Virus record (IMG/VR): IMGVR_UViG_3300032213_000902 | Location: 1-29,407 of that record | Reading direction: 5' to 3' (one strand) | Origin: a virus | Length of the DNA stretch: 29,407 bases | Part shown: positions 2,968 to 6,374 of the stretch, piece by piece | How the letters are laid out: each line of letters begins with the position of its first letter | Position numbering within the stretch: position 1 is the stretch's first letter | The notes under the pieces: generated by a model | Told to the model about the DNA's origin: nothing | Databases searched by the model: none | The model's input: the letters and a program-made list of their open reading frames with translations, nothing else | Translations under genes and position numbers: made by a program

Positions 2968-4320
2968 ATGGCAATTCGTAAAGGTGGTAAAGCAGGTAAA
3001 TCTGCTAAGGCTGCAGTAAGTTTTTGGGGTGTAGCCCCAGGGCAACCTTACATCGTAAGCGTAGTCCCAGGTTTTGGTGGAGCATACTTCTCATCAACAG
3101 CCGTGATTACATTCAATAAGAACATTATGGGTGCTACTCCTTCTTCTTATACAATTTTCGCTAACTCAATTTATGGAACTAGTACGTTTACAGCAACGTC
3201 TTCACCATTTACAGTTACAGGTCTAAGAGCAGGTACAGCCTACGCATTCACAATTCTTGCAAATGCTCCAATTGGTCAAACAGCAACAGAGACAACATCA
3301 ATATCGTCTTCACAGACTAACGCAGATGTAAAGTCTGTTCCTGATGCTCCAACAGGCGTTACAGCATCTTCACCATCTGGTGCAACATATGATACAGTAT
3401 CATGGTCAGCACCAGCAGATAACGGTGGAGAAGCAATTACTAACTATCAGATTGAATCTTCTGACGGAAAGTCTGCTACAGTAAATGCTCTTACAACAAA
3501 TATTGCACAAGAAGCAGGAACAGCACAGACATATCGTGTTAGAGCCTACAATGCTCAAGGTTGGTCAGAATGGTCTGCATGGTCAGCATCTGTTACAACA
3601 TTCTCATTTGTACCGTTCTCAGTATTCGGCTTCTCCCCATTTGGAGTATTTGGCTTCTCACCATTCGGTGTATTCGGCTTCTCACCATTCGGATTCTCTC
3701 CGTTCGGGGTATTCGGATTCTCTCCGTTCGGGGTATTCGGATTCTCACCATTTGGGTTCTCTCCATTCGGAGTGTTTGGATTTTCACCATTCGGCGTATT
3801 TGGTTTCTCTCCAGGAGGAGGATGTATTGCCCCTGATACTCTAGTATCAGTTGTTGGTCCAGAAGACACATACATTCAAATTCCTGCAAAGGATGTTGTT
3901 ACTGGACAAGAAGTCTGGGCGCACTCATTTAATGAAATGGATGACGAGTCTGTATCAGATCCAATGACATTGGCTTTCAATCAACTAACAGATCAGGCAA
4001 TTGTTAAAACAAATGTTGCATCTGTTGTTGAAAAAGAAATGCCAGCAACAATGACAATCAACGGAGACTCAACAAAGAAGTATTCTACAGTACAGGGAAT
4101 TCTCTACAAGAGAAACGGTATTTATGGATATATTAACACAGGACTTCTAGAAGTTGGAGACTATGTAGTGGAATACGATTACAACCTTCACTCTTTCAAT
4201 GAAATTGCAGTTACATCACTTGAAATTGATGAGACACCTTCAACAGTTTACAAGTTTGATATGGAGCCAGTCGATACATTCATCGCTGGTAACATGGTAG
4301 TACACAATCGTAAGACATGA
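2968..4320 (+). CDS. FN3-like adhesin with Phe/Gly repeat and C-terminal Hint domain
   Basis: A 450-residue protein with a start after AAAGGGAG. The N-terminus is basic (K-G-G-K-A-G-K-S). Residues ~25-118 and ~125-212 look like two fibronectin type III folds; the second has the classic P-D-A-P-T-G-V...W-S-A-P...Y-R-V-R-A-Y-N pattern. Residues 221-283 are three copies of a 21-residue aromatic repeat built from G-F-S-P-F-G-V-F. At G-G-G-C286 a Hint (hedgehog/intein) domain begins (C-I-A-P-D-T-L-V) and runs to V-V-H446-N447, ~162 residues, too small for a homing endonuclease. Only R-K-T follows, so there is no Cys/Ser/Thr at +1 and normal splicing is unlikely. The block-B His appears replaced by Gln376 (S-T-V-Q-G-I-L). 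The likely role is a surface or tail protein with autoproteolytic or crosslinking potential, like bacterial intein-like domains. It is followed 5 bases later by a sulfotransferase gene. Confidence 0.8.
   Translation: MAIRKGGKAGKSAKAAVSFWGVAPGQPYIVSVVPGFGGAYFSSTAVITFNKNIMGATPSSYTIFANSIYGTSTFTATSSPFTVTGLRAGTAYAFTILANAPIGQTATETTSISSSQTNADVKSVPDAPTGVTASSPSGATYDTVSWSAPADNGGEAITNYQIESSDGKSATVNALTTNIAQEAGTAQTYRVRAYNAQGWSEWSAWSASVTTFSFVPFSVFGFSPFGVFGFSPFGVFGFSPFGFSPFGVFGFSPFGVFGFSPFGFSPFGVFGFSPFGVFGFSPGGGCIAPDTLVSVVGPEDTYIQIPAKDVVTGQEVWAHSFNEMDDESVSDPMTLAFNQLTDQAIVKTNVASVVEKEMPATMTINGDSTKKYSTVQGILYKRNGIYGYINTGLLEVGDYVVEYDYNLHSFNEIAVTSLEIDETPSTVYKFDMEPVDTFIAGNMVVHNRKT
3628..3816 (+). repeat. Three 63-bp repeats coding a 21-residue Phe/Gly unit
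   Basis: Copies lie at 3628-3690, 3691-3753 and 3754-3816. Each encodes 8+8+5 residues: G-F-S-P-F-G-V-F twice, then G-F-S-P-F. In the third copy the last residue is Gly, leading into G-G-Cys of the Hint domain. Synonymous third bases differ among most units, although 3691-3714 and 3715-3738 are identical 24-mers. Confidence 0.9.
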
Positions 4321-4325
4321 TATAA

Positions 4326-5042
4326 GTGCTTTATCACCATCATGTGCCAAGGACTTCAGGCCTATTCATTAGATCTGGGGTCCATTTGGCTTTCCAGACA
4401 AACAAATTAAAGTCATCAATTATTTATCATGACAGGATAATTAGTCCAGAAATGTTTAAAGATGTTGAGTTTATTTCTGGGCACCTAGGAAACTATCCGA
4501 ATTTATTTATTAAAGACTTAAAATCTTTTACAATATTAAGAGATCCAGTTGAGAGGTTTGTTAGTTGGTTCTTTTTTATGTATGAAAACTCCAGAAGTTT
4601 TGAGGAACTTGAAAAGATATTTGATGAATGGCTTTATAACCCAGAGATATATCCATACCTTTCTGATATGCAAACAAAATTTTTGACGGGAACTGTAGAT
4701 GAAGCAGGATTTAACAGTACTAAAAGCATAATGGATAAGACCATGAATGAGTGGTTTCTCAAAGACTATTCATTTGATGAGTCAGTTATGCAGGCAAAGG
4801 TTGACGCTATTAGTTGCTATACAATAGAGACCAGAGGCATATTGTTGGATGACATAATTAGGTATATGAGCAAGACATATGGGTTTGTTCCAAACTTTCA
4901 ACATAGAAATATGATGTTTAACTCAAGTACATCTAAAAGGTTTAACATAACTGACAAAATGATTAATAGGATTAAAGAACTAAATCAGCATGATATACTT
5001 TTGTATGAGATGGCAAAAAGATCCAATCCAAAGCCACTTTAG
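4326..5042 (+). CDS. Sulfotransferase family protein (PAPS-dependent)
   Basis: A 238-residue protein that probably transfers sulfate from PAPS to a hydroxyl of a glycan, or possibly to a tyrosine. The 5'-phosphosulfate loop is right at the N-terminus (H-V-P-R-T-S-G, residues 6-12), in place of the usual H-I-P-K-T-G-G. The 3'-phosphate motif is at residues ~69-80 (T-I-L-R72-D-P-V-E-R-F-V-S), matching Sulfotransfer_2-type families. The only start is GTG at 4326, because the codon before it is a stop. It lies 5 bases after the Hint gene with no clear Shine-Dalgarno, so it is probably translationally coupled. The region is visibly more A/T-rich than the fibre genes, as expected for an acquired accessory gene. 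The acceptor is unknown. Confidence 0.8.
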   Translation: MLYHHHVPRTSGLFIRSGVHLAFQTNKLKSSIIYHDRIISPEMFKDVEFISGHLGNYPNLFIKDLKSFTILRDPVERFVSWFFFMYENSRSFEELEKIFDEWLYNPEIYPYLSDMQTKFLTGTVDEAGFNSTKSIMDKTMNEWFLKDYSFDESVMQAKVDAISCYTIETRGILLDDIIRYMSKTYGFVPNFQHRNMMFNSSTSKRFNITDKMINRIKELNQHDILLYEMAKRSNPKPL

Positions 5043-5082: not shown

Positions 5083-5742
5083 ATGAACAACTATCCAACG
5101 GATATTCAGAGTGTGAGCAAGTCCACTCAACCACATAAGTTTTTTGAAAGATACCTTGATAATAATCTATCAGTCCTAGCATCAGAACTACAGGACAGAT
5201 ACGAAAAGATTGAAAAAGCAAAGGTTGTAGGTGTAACTCCAGTAGGGGCTAACGAAGCATGGAAGCAATCTAATAGTGTTTCAACAATGAAGTGGAGACA
5301 GTATAATGTTTTCCAATTCCACTCAACTGGTATTTATAATTTATACAAGGCTGTTAAAGACATGACTATTGAGGCTTGTGATTACTATGGAGTTGACTTT
5401 GAAAAAGAAAAGTTTATGCTTCAGGGTTGGTTTAATATTACTCATGCTGGCAAGGGTAAACTTGATTGGCATGATCATGGTCCAACTGGTGCTCCAAATT
5501 TCCATGGTTATTATTCTGTAAGTGCAGAACCTTCAATTACATACTATAAGGTTTTTGATAAAGAGATTGAAAACCATAACAAAAATGATCGTGCAATCCT
5601 TTCTGAAATGGGACACCCACACTCAATGGCAGATTGGGACTGGGAAGGTCCAAGAATTACAGTTGCATATGATGTTATTCCATTAAGAGATATTCAAAAG
5701 TTTGGAATGGATCAAGAGCAGCATTGGATTCCTTTAGCATGA
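5083..5742 (+). CDS. 2OG-Fe(II) oxygenase-like protein, paralogue 1
   Basis: A 219-residue protein with a good Shine-Dalgarno AAAGGGAG. A double-stranded beta-helix oxygenase is suggested by H130-D-H132 after a W-F-N-I strand, the following G-Y-Y-S-V strand, a distal H180 and R191 eleven residues later in P-R-I-T-V-A-Y-D. This is the order metal ligand H-x-(H/D), metal ligand H, 2-oxoglutarate-binding R. The proximal motif reads H-x-H, not H-x-D, as in some phage-borne putative 2OG oxygenases. The N-terminal P-H-K-F-F-E-R-Y-L-D helix is shared with the next gene, its tandem paralogue. The substrate is unknown. Context next to a sulfotransferase and fibre genes suggests modification of a structural protein or a surface glycan. 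Confidence 0.65.
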   Translation: MNNYPTDIQSVSKSTQPHKFFERYLDNNLSVLASELQDRYEKIEKAKVVGVTPVGANEAWKQSNSVSTMKWRQYNVFQFHSTGIYNLYKAVKDMTIEACDYYGVDFEKEKFMLQGWFNITHAGKGKLDWHDHGPTGAPNFHGYYSVSAEPSITYYKVFDKEIENHNKNDRAILSEMGHPHSMADWDWEGPRITVAYDVIPLRDIQKFGMDQEQHWIPLA

Positions 5743-6374
5743 TAGCAATGATAAAACCAAATCATAAGTTTTTTGAAAGACACCTAGACCTAGATCTTCC
5801 AAAATTTGAGACTTCTCTTTTAAGTCTTAAAGAAAGACTTTCTTCTGAAAATGTTCCAGGGGTAAAAAATAATGATTATGAGTCAGTAGATAGAGCATCA
5901 TTTACTACTCAACTAGGAGAAAAGTATAATATTTTCCAGTTCCATGACGAGAATATTAGAGCGCTATATTCCTCAATTAGCGACATGGTTTTAGAAGCCT
6001 GCGAATATTATGGCATCGATGCTAAAAGTCAAAACTATATGATTCAGGGATGGTTTAATGCTGACAAGAATAGCAAGCCAGAGCCACTACCAAATACATA
6101 TCTTCATGATCATTTAAATGGGCAAGGCGCTCCAGATTTCCATGGATATTACTGTGTCAATGCAGAACCTTCATATACAAAATATATGATTTCAGGAGAA
6201 ACAGAGTTTTTAAATGTTAATGTTAATAACCGTGCAATCCTTTCTGAAACTGGACATGCTCATGGCATTAGCAACTGGCCTTTTGAAAAAGATAGAATTA
6301 CAATTGCCTATGATGTATCCCCATTGCAAAATATGAAAGGCTCCCCAGAGCAACATTGGGTTCCAATTCTATGA
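5739..6374 (+). CDS. 2OG-Fe(II) oxygenase-like protein, paralogue 2
   Basis: A 211-residue paralogue of the preceding protein. The start is ATG 5739, which overlaps the upstream TGA as ATGA; a longer in-frame start at 5724 would only extend into the upstream gene. Shared signatures are N-H-K-F-F-E-R-H-L-D at the N-terminus, Y-N-I-F-Q-F-H, the M-I-Q-G-W-F-N strand, H123-D-H125, D-F-H-G-Y-Y-C-V-N-A-E-P-S, N-R-A-I-L-S-E-T-G-H, distal H175 and R186 in D-R-I-T-I-A-Y-D. Both copies keep all putative metal and 2-oxoglutarate ligands, so both are probably active. Overlap implies co-translation and perhaps a heterodimer. The substrate is unknown. Confidence 0.65.
   Translation: MIAMIKPNHKFFERHLDLDLPKFETSLLSLKERLSSENVPGVKNNDYESVDRASFTTQLGEKYNIFQFHDENIRALYSSISDMVLEACEYYGIDAKSQNYMIQGWFNADKNSKPEPLPNTYLHDHLNGQGAPDFHGYYCVNAEPSYTKYMISGETEFLNVNVNNRAILSETGHAHGISNWPFEKDRITIAYDVSPLQNMKGSPEQHWVPIL

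Follow-up and report, generated by a model that had tools for sequence, protein, structure and literature searches.

A phage FN3-repeat protein ends in a predicted Hint domain related to self-cutting inteins

The protein encoded at positions 2968-4320 of IMG/VR virus record IMGVR_UViG_3300032213_000902 ends in a Hint domain related to self-cutting inteins, a fold that is well supported by profile comparison and structure models. The window, i.e., the whole stretch of DNA analysed, is the complete virus record of 29407 bases, and the genes and parts mapped between 1522 and 5042 lie on its plus strand. From sequence and model we lean slightly towards reading the domain as an autoprocessing cap similar to type A bacterial intein-like (BIL) domains, in which a thioester at C286 would lead to release or transfer of the adhesin chain. 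Catalysis, its product and the presence of the protein in virions are the parts of this reading that we infer.

The gene (2968-4320) is an open frame with an ATG start, encodes 450 amino acids and exhibits dN/dS values well under 1 against relatives. A basic N-terminal start precedes two FN3-like domains, in agreement with a sequence-only reading of this DNA. The second (residues 126-206, positions 3343-3585) is recognized by PF00041 in the whole protein with an E value of 2.6e-12. The first (residues 44-108, positions 3097-3291) is beta-rich in the model and matches the same family more weakly (E 5e-5); its 23.9 bits, obtained when residues 1-130 were scanned alone, lie just below the 25-bit cut-off, which makes it borderline by Pfam. 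The aromatic repeat announced in the same reading is an FGFSPFG(V) linker comprising residues 217-282, detected by TRF as a tandem repeat at 3616-3813. Compared with each of six relatives it carries zero amino-acid changes despite silent changes. In the whole-protein model, which is weak overall (pTM 0.40), pLDDT stays below 50 across residues 215-283, and the repeat is thus predicted to be a flexible linker that probably has no fixed structure. G-G-G then leads directly into Cys286 (3823-3825), candidate thioester nucleophile and residue 1 of a Hint domain of 162 residues that extends to N447 (3823-4308) and ends with the block G pair His446-Asn447 (4303-4308). Only the three residues R-K-T (4309-4317) follow, exactly as had been proposed; the tails of close relatives read RKT, RKS, LKT and YKAV. 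For the Hint domain, dN/dS is 0.075-0.17 against six relatives. The earlier designation as an adhesin is backed by the FN3 domains, by the adjoining tail fibre gene and by a match of residues 54-211 to PHROG 6977, a minor tail protein family (E 2.1e-10), and the gene sits among tail genes; binding and location on the virion are putative.

Neither Pfam nor NCBIfam alone calls a Hint in the window protein (Intein_splicing only with E 0.053), and phmmer against a BIL structure yielded E 0.029. A profile of 25 family members, in turn, matched inteins in the PDB, best of all the Pho RadA intein (E 1.9e-7). The AlphaFold2 model of the domain has a mean pLDDT of 92.1 and led Foldseek to inteins and BIL domains, with a RadA intein in first place (E 4.5e-8). 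VIA-align gave Z scores of 18.6 for the Mtu RecA mini-intein 5i0a (137 residues aligned, 1.9 A), 18.2 for T. thermophila BIL2, 17.6 for Hedgehog and 16.9 for the C. thermocellum BIL. With 2in0 (Z 18.4), model residues 4-165, corresponding to C286-N447, superpose on chain residues 1-440, and several Mtu RecA structures show the same correspondence, with C286-N447 matched to intein positions 1-440. A Hint fold with its nucleophile position at C286, its terminal Asn at N447 and kinship with BIL domains, all expected from the letters of the sequence, are therefore matched by profile and model, with Z values of about 18 to inteins and BIL domains.

Several established classes can be set aside. Standard splicing had already been considered improbable, and indeed position +1 is Arg448 rather than Cys, Ser or Thr. 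A class 1 intein is rejected on the same residue and on the three remaining residues, which provide no C-extein to ligate. Class 3 inteins combine Cys at F:4 with the absence of an N-terminal nucleophile, whereas the window Hint has Lys429 at F:4 and Cys at residue 1. Neither does it belong to the pretoxin Hints (PT-HINT), as a toxin domain has no place in three residues. The Hedgehog autoprocessing domain is likewise a C-terminal Hint, one that works on the domain in front of it, and in Hedgehog a sterol-recognition region follows the Hint. The window protein, in contrast, ends with His-Asn and stops three residues past N447, leaving no room for such a region, so that assignment as a Hog domain fails. 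With type A BIL domains it has in common the Hint fold, Cys1, the terminal His-Asn and the absence of Cys/Ser/Thr at +1, and the structural likeness is to two BIL domains that may or may not be of type A. It differs from type A in carrying Gln instead of the block B histidine and in its very C-terminal position. Because block B reads S-T-V-Q in the alignments (residues 373-376, positions 4084-4095; Gln376 at B:10) and not T-x-x-H, we call the domain BIL-like and not BIL; T-x-x-H is the usual Hint motif, and the accessible part of PMC4031507 does not list it as BIL-defining.

The assembled phage family comprises 54 distinct Hints in 26 clusters at 60% identity, all C-terminal on FN3-, PASTA- or collagen-type proteins. 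This number was reached by reducing 84 rows according to their last 120 residues; L011 and L066 were omitted as non-fibre-like, the close relative L003 and the fragment L010 stand outside the 54 rows, and nine second Hints found later were counted apart. A scan for the repeat DNA, i.e., a search without selection on the Hint, yielded 60 distinct ORFs. Sorted by a tail-length rule of our own, 30 have a long C-terminal domain, 16 a short one, 6 are cut by the locus end and 8 are non-fibre-like, although one of these eight (L017) does bear a Hint. Removal of duplicates (42 to 30 rows) gave the repeat-found set used below as the unbiased sample. The 16 Hint-less repeat ORFs stop 5-22 residues past the repeat; they include L016, a frameshifted copy of a Hint gene, and L012, L022 and L058, which were assigned by repeat and tail. 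L016 and L099 reside on one contig (IMGVR_UViG_3300021247_000478), where the FN3 frame exits the repeat out of the Hint frame. Either the repeat is truly frameshifted or the assembly is wrong; the shift would switch the Hint off. Most other Hint-less ends among the short-tail repeat ORFs have no Cys among their last residues, and the Hint-less PASTA proteins L161-L164, like the Hint-less FN3 proteins L014 and L021, have short Cys-containing ends.

FN3- and PASTA-type members with different linkers came from additional scans. When members other than the window Hint served as tblastn queries, the matches were tail proteins from jumbo phages of Erwinia, Dickeya and Yersinia, from two smaller phage records and from phage NCTB. 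These phages include Erwinia Y3, Yoloswag, pEa_SNUABM_5 and others, Dickeya AD1, Yersinia fHe-Yen9-02 and Alcaligenes Afa-NA1. As in the window, a C-terminal Hint with Cys1 and a short tail is found on a tail- or fibre-type protein; in contrast to the window, these Hints have the canonical T-x-x-H and tails of 7-12 residues, with Thr at +1 in six. The head is of the collagen type in pEa_SNUABM_5, the only member reached by tblastn that was scanned with Pfam, as opposed to FN3 in the window. In pEa_SNUABM_5 (L096, 2975-5536) two more collagen-like fibre genes come after the Hint gene, and relatives have a similar gene order by annotation; a mixed trimer with a single Hint-bearing chain is imaginable there. 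The nearest viral model in BFVD is A0A6J5MFV5 from an uncultured Caudovirales phage, named 'Fibronectin type III' (TMq 0.94, E 3.5e-19); it was compared by structure and name and differs in having 34% identity over the aligned part. Linkers vary widely across the family (GFSPFG, VTP, TP, APTSP, FFAPP, INT, QNT), while the Hint stays C-terminal. Given these varied linkers and heads, the constant position and the Hint-less forms, the Hint is, as read from the sequences, an optional cap placed on several kinds of head and sometimes absent.

The catalytic positions of this cap are strongly retained. Block and position names follow PMC4031507 except F:13, which is our own label. Residue 1 is Cys in 47 and Ser in 7 of the 54 distinct Hints; rows from one added scan, whose pattern required a first Cys and the Gly before it, are no independent evidence on residue 1 or on that Gly. 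In the unbiased 30 rows, Cys or Ser occupies residue 1 in 30/30, and the C-terminal pair is H-N in 20 and H-D in 6. Over all 54, B:7 is Thr (28) or Ser (26), B:10 is His (35), Gln (16) or Glu (3), and F:13, which is Asp436 in the window (4273-4275), is Asp (50), Gly (3) or His (1). This Asp is a family signature in the alignments, in which the Pho RadA intein and the C. thermocellum BIL sequences have His. The penultimate residue is His in 50, Tyr in 3 and Leu in 1, and the last one Asn in 45, Asp in 6, Gly in 2 and Glu in 1, so that His-Asn occur together in 44/54. Position +1 is occupied by a residue other than Cys, Ser or Thr in 39/45 Asn-ending rows; Thr is found in the other six, all from Erwinia/Dickeya jumbo phages. 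On a tree built without the catalytic columns, residue 1 changed once, against a median of 13 for the 137 columns, and was joint first with two others. F:13 ranked 7th, G7 8th, B7 10th, B10 13th and G8 15th, the order among columns of equal change count being arbitrary, and F:4 proved to be a freely changing column (rank 85 of 137). The seven Ser1 rows group together with good support (98/94); six end in H-D and one in L-E. Even members with a changed C-terminal pair (L035, L048, L077, L079) keep residue 1, and hence the N-side step is the constant one. At the sequence level, this conservation is the pattern of a retained N-side reaction, and the near-invariance of the key residue suggests that the Hint still does chemistry.

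Eight of the nine second-Hint rows also have Cys or Ser at residue 1. The ninth, L159, is the one free-standing Hint ORF found (176 aa) and has lost residue 1, B:10, F:13 and H-N altogether; judged from sequence, such joint loss is what lost function should look like. Together with L164 it lies in the record behind L051, where a Hint-less PASTA protein with NTV/QNT repeats ends about 0.2 kb before it and a single short ORF separates the two.

The window protein deviates at the position where inteins are most constant, a point that the sequence-only reading passed over. According to the accessible part of the review PMC4031507, no intein residue is more conserved than the block B His; the review knew of two inteins lacking it, one a pseudogene and the other activated by a Lys. 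The same source describes the Tko CDC21-1 intein, whose N-terminal junction is activated despite a missing block B His; it is an ordinary intein that uses Lys58, and no matching Lys was identified in the window Hint. As far as PMC6333167 was available, steric rescue of a missing His needs a bulky residue before Cys1. Such a rescue is ruled out for the Gln-type clade, where this residue is Gly in 15/16 rows (L072 included) and Arg in one; Gly was also found in 12/13 Gln-type rows of the unbiased set. The close relative L003, with C1, Gln and H-N, has Ala. Lys429 (4252-4254), assigned to F:4 by profile alignment to the Pho RadA intein, takes a place where many inteins have Asp, and Lys or Arg is present at F:4 in 13/16 Gln-type rows versus 1/38 others. 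As these alignments go, the basic residue might compensate for the missing His; the co-change of B:10 and F:4 was rejected as an argument, since strong raw counts reduce to one independent pair on well-supported branches. Because of Gln376 at B:10 and Lys429 at F:4, a fast thioester at C286 is less certain than first assumed. Plain decay, on the other hand, is argued against by the Hint dN/dS and by C1 and H-N, which are invariant within the clade (H-N in 16/16 rows). From the sequences, three readings of the Gln-type clade stand side by side: a substitute residue, a first step that is slow or needs a trigger, and a non-catalytic use.

Our preferred reading is thus of a modular phage surface protein in which two FN3 domains, followed by the flexible GFSPFG linker, would carry a cis-acting Hint of the type A BIL kind at the end. 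On folding, the Hint would move the G285-C286 peptide bond onto the thiol of Cys286. A nucleophile would then take the chain: most likely water, which would release the FN3-repeat part, or, less likely, another group, to which that part would become attached. Asn447 could cyclise, but this would remove R-K-T alone, so that a meaningful product would come from the N-side reaction only; splicing would have little meaning with a tail of three residues. As Gln376 replaces the usual catalytic His, the first step in the Gln-type clade is probably slow, aided by another residue or triggered. There is a precedent in BIL domains, for which the accessible part of PMC4031507 reports thioester formation and Asn cyclisation with cleavage products dominating. 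The Hint-less proteins resemble by sequence the chain that C286 cleavage would leave, and loss or gain of the domain explains them equally well.

Instead of meeting water, the thioester could be resolved by an amine or another nucleophile, whether on the virion, on a partner Hint protein or on a surface, so that the adhesin would be covalently anchored by its C-terminus. The model is Hedgehog, which is joined to cholesterol. By this analogy anchoring is possible, and we give it a distinctly minor weight. It would agree with a residue 1 that is constant while the C-terminal pair can vary and with the frequency of Lys in the short tails; hydrolysis is, however, the simpler outcome, and the acceptor is hypothetical. 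In L097-L115, the end is T-H-N-K with a single Lys after Asn in 19/19 loci of one scan. The tail Lys, often seen, may be a hidden acceptor or may reflect a constraint on the peptide or on a ribosome site; the latter is conceivable because its codon sits at the gene end near the start of the next gene.

Anchoring also gains from the genomes, as 13 of 22 Hint-bearing records contain two Hint-capped proteins with unlike heads. These counts come from 34 records behind 35 loci, chosen not at random, several being near copies whose kinship was ignored. A profile search found Hints in 22 of them, with two matches in 14, and none in 12, one of which stemmed from a chance pattern match in a non-fibre ORF. 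In the fourteenth record with two matches, G020, the second is the decayed L159. The other eight Hint-bearing records have one Hint only, in some cases owing to a record end close by. The second Hint of G001-G004 and G011 is located 7.8-9.0 kb upstream and caps a PASTA protein with an INT, TP or QNT linker; its block is the canonical T-x-E-H and its end H-N. An equivalent Hint would fall past the left end of the window record. Where PASTA scores above the cut-off (16 records), both proteins have a Hint in 11 and neither in 5. Among four records with a weaker PASTA match, both have it in two and only the FN3 protein in two (G012, G020). Strict pairing is contradicted by these two, in which the PASTA protein has no Hint; with a Hint on just one of the proteins, at least these two records also speak against anchoring in general. 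We consider it improbable that the Gln-type FN3 and canonical PASTA Hint proteins work as a pair, processed or joined via their C-termini, in which the weak thioester is activated by the canonical Hint or by what it produces.

Rather than catalysing anything, the Hint could be a folded cap or a tip for trimerization or receptor binding, which we regard as unlikely. The replacement of the catalytic His by Gln376 would fit such a role, as would members with H-D, Y-G, L-E or H-P in place of H-N and the interchange of caps with short non-Hint ends; C286 itself may have a structural role. A mere cap is, however, harder to square with a residue 1 that is joint slowest of 137 columns, with B7, B10, F13, G7 and G8 in the top 15, and with the joint loss of residue 1, B10, F13, G7 and G8 in the decayed free-standing copy.

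It is very improbable that only Asn447 cyclisation is retained, with the Hint trimming its own short tail while the adhesin stays attached: the uniform H-N of the Gln-type rows and an effect of block B His loss on the N-side step would suit it, but just 1-6 residues would be removed in these rows and residue 1 is kept in members with changed H-N. The view of the Hint as a degenerating leftover of an ordinary mobile intein, for which the missing +1 nucleophile and a Hint of 162 residues too small for an endonuclease domain could be cited, is scarcely tenable, as the architecture already makes it unlikely (C-terminal in every fibre-linked member read, with FN3, PASTA and collagen heads and unlike linkers) and the low Hint dN/dS opposes it.

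The Hint gene is preceded by a tail fibre gene (1522-2934; Mtd_N E 1.9e-14, tail-fibre PHROGs), which ends 33 bases before it, and followed after 5 bases by a sulfotransferase-family gene (4326-5042, start as called by the ORF tool; PF03567 with 25.8 bits, cut-off 22). A sulfotransferase homologue lies directly downstream in 11/30 Hint-bearing repeat loci and 0/16 Hint-less ones, some loci having little downstream room. All 11 are Gln-type and make up 11/12 Gln-type loci there, L039 being the one without it. Outside the repeat set it follows the Gln-type L133-L138 and L140 as well as L139, which has His at B:10, and is absent after L126, a PASTA-type Gln member. The sulfotransferase thus tracks the FN3-Hint group and not strictly the Gln. 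Further downstream (5083-6374), two adjacent genes encode proteins of 219 and 216 aa that are alike by eye; Pfam gave no match for the 219-aa protein, and from their histidines both may be of an oxygenase type.

Named phages yielded no match in tblastn with the window Hint (E up to 0.1) or with the Hints of L015 and L039 (E up to 0.01), nor in megablast with window positions 1-25000. In bacterial and archaeal genomes, 0 relatives were encoded among 130 and 109 pattern matches, so there is no host or prophage link from these. The capsid protein is nearest to those of Streptomyces phages at about 41%, too weak for naming a host.

The claim that such domains are poorly described on phage fibre-type proteins stands for the open-licence PMC literature and falls for sequence records. 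Y3 and NCTB already carry the annotation 'putative phage tail protein, contains intein domain', and BFVD names similar proteins 'Fibronectin type III', 'PASTA_pknB domain containing protein' and 'Hint domain containing protein'. In their accessible parts, PMC3556154, PMC5259590, PMC7412058, PMC13282480, PMC7468147 and PMC5526547 cover inteins that sit in other phage genes or are treated as mobile elements, and searches of open-licence PMC full text yielded no account of these domains capping fibres, of the Gln-type clade or of the pairing. The kind of protein is hence already known from GenBank annotation, while for the Gln-type clade and the pairing the searched open-licence PMC papers offered no description.

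If the preferred reading is true, Hint domains gain a use on virus particles, in self-processing or self-attaching adhesins, and if the pair reading were true, a phage would build a covalent two-headed fibre without an enzyme. A compact C-terminal cap could serve protein ligation. The Gln-type clade would test how an enzyme of the intein fold works without its most conserved residue, and, as His- and Gln-type members occur naturally on proteins of one kind, the two can be compared directly.
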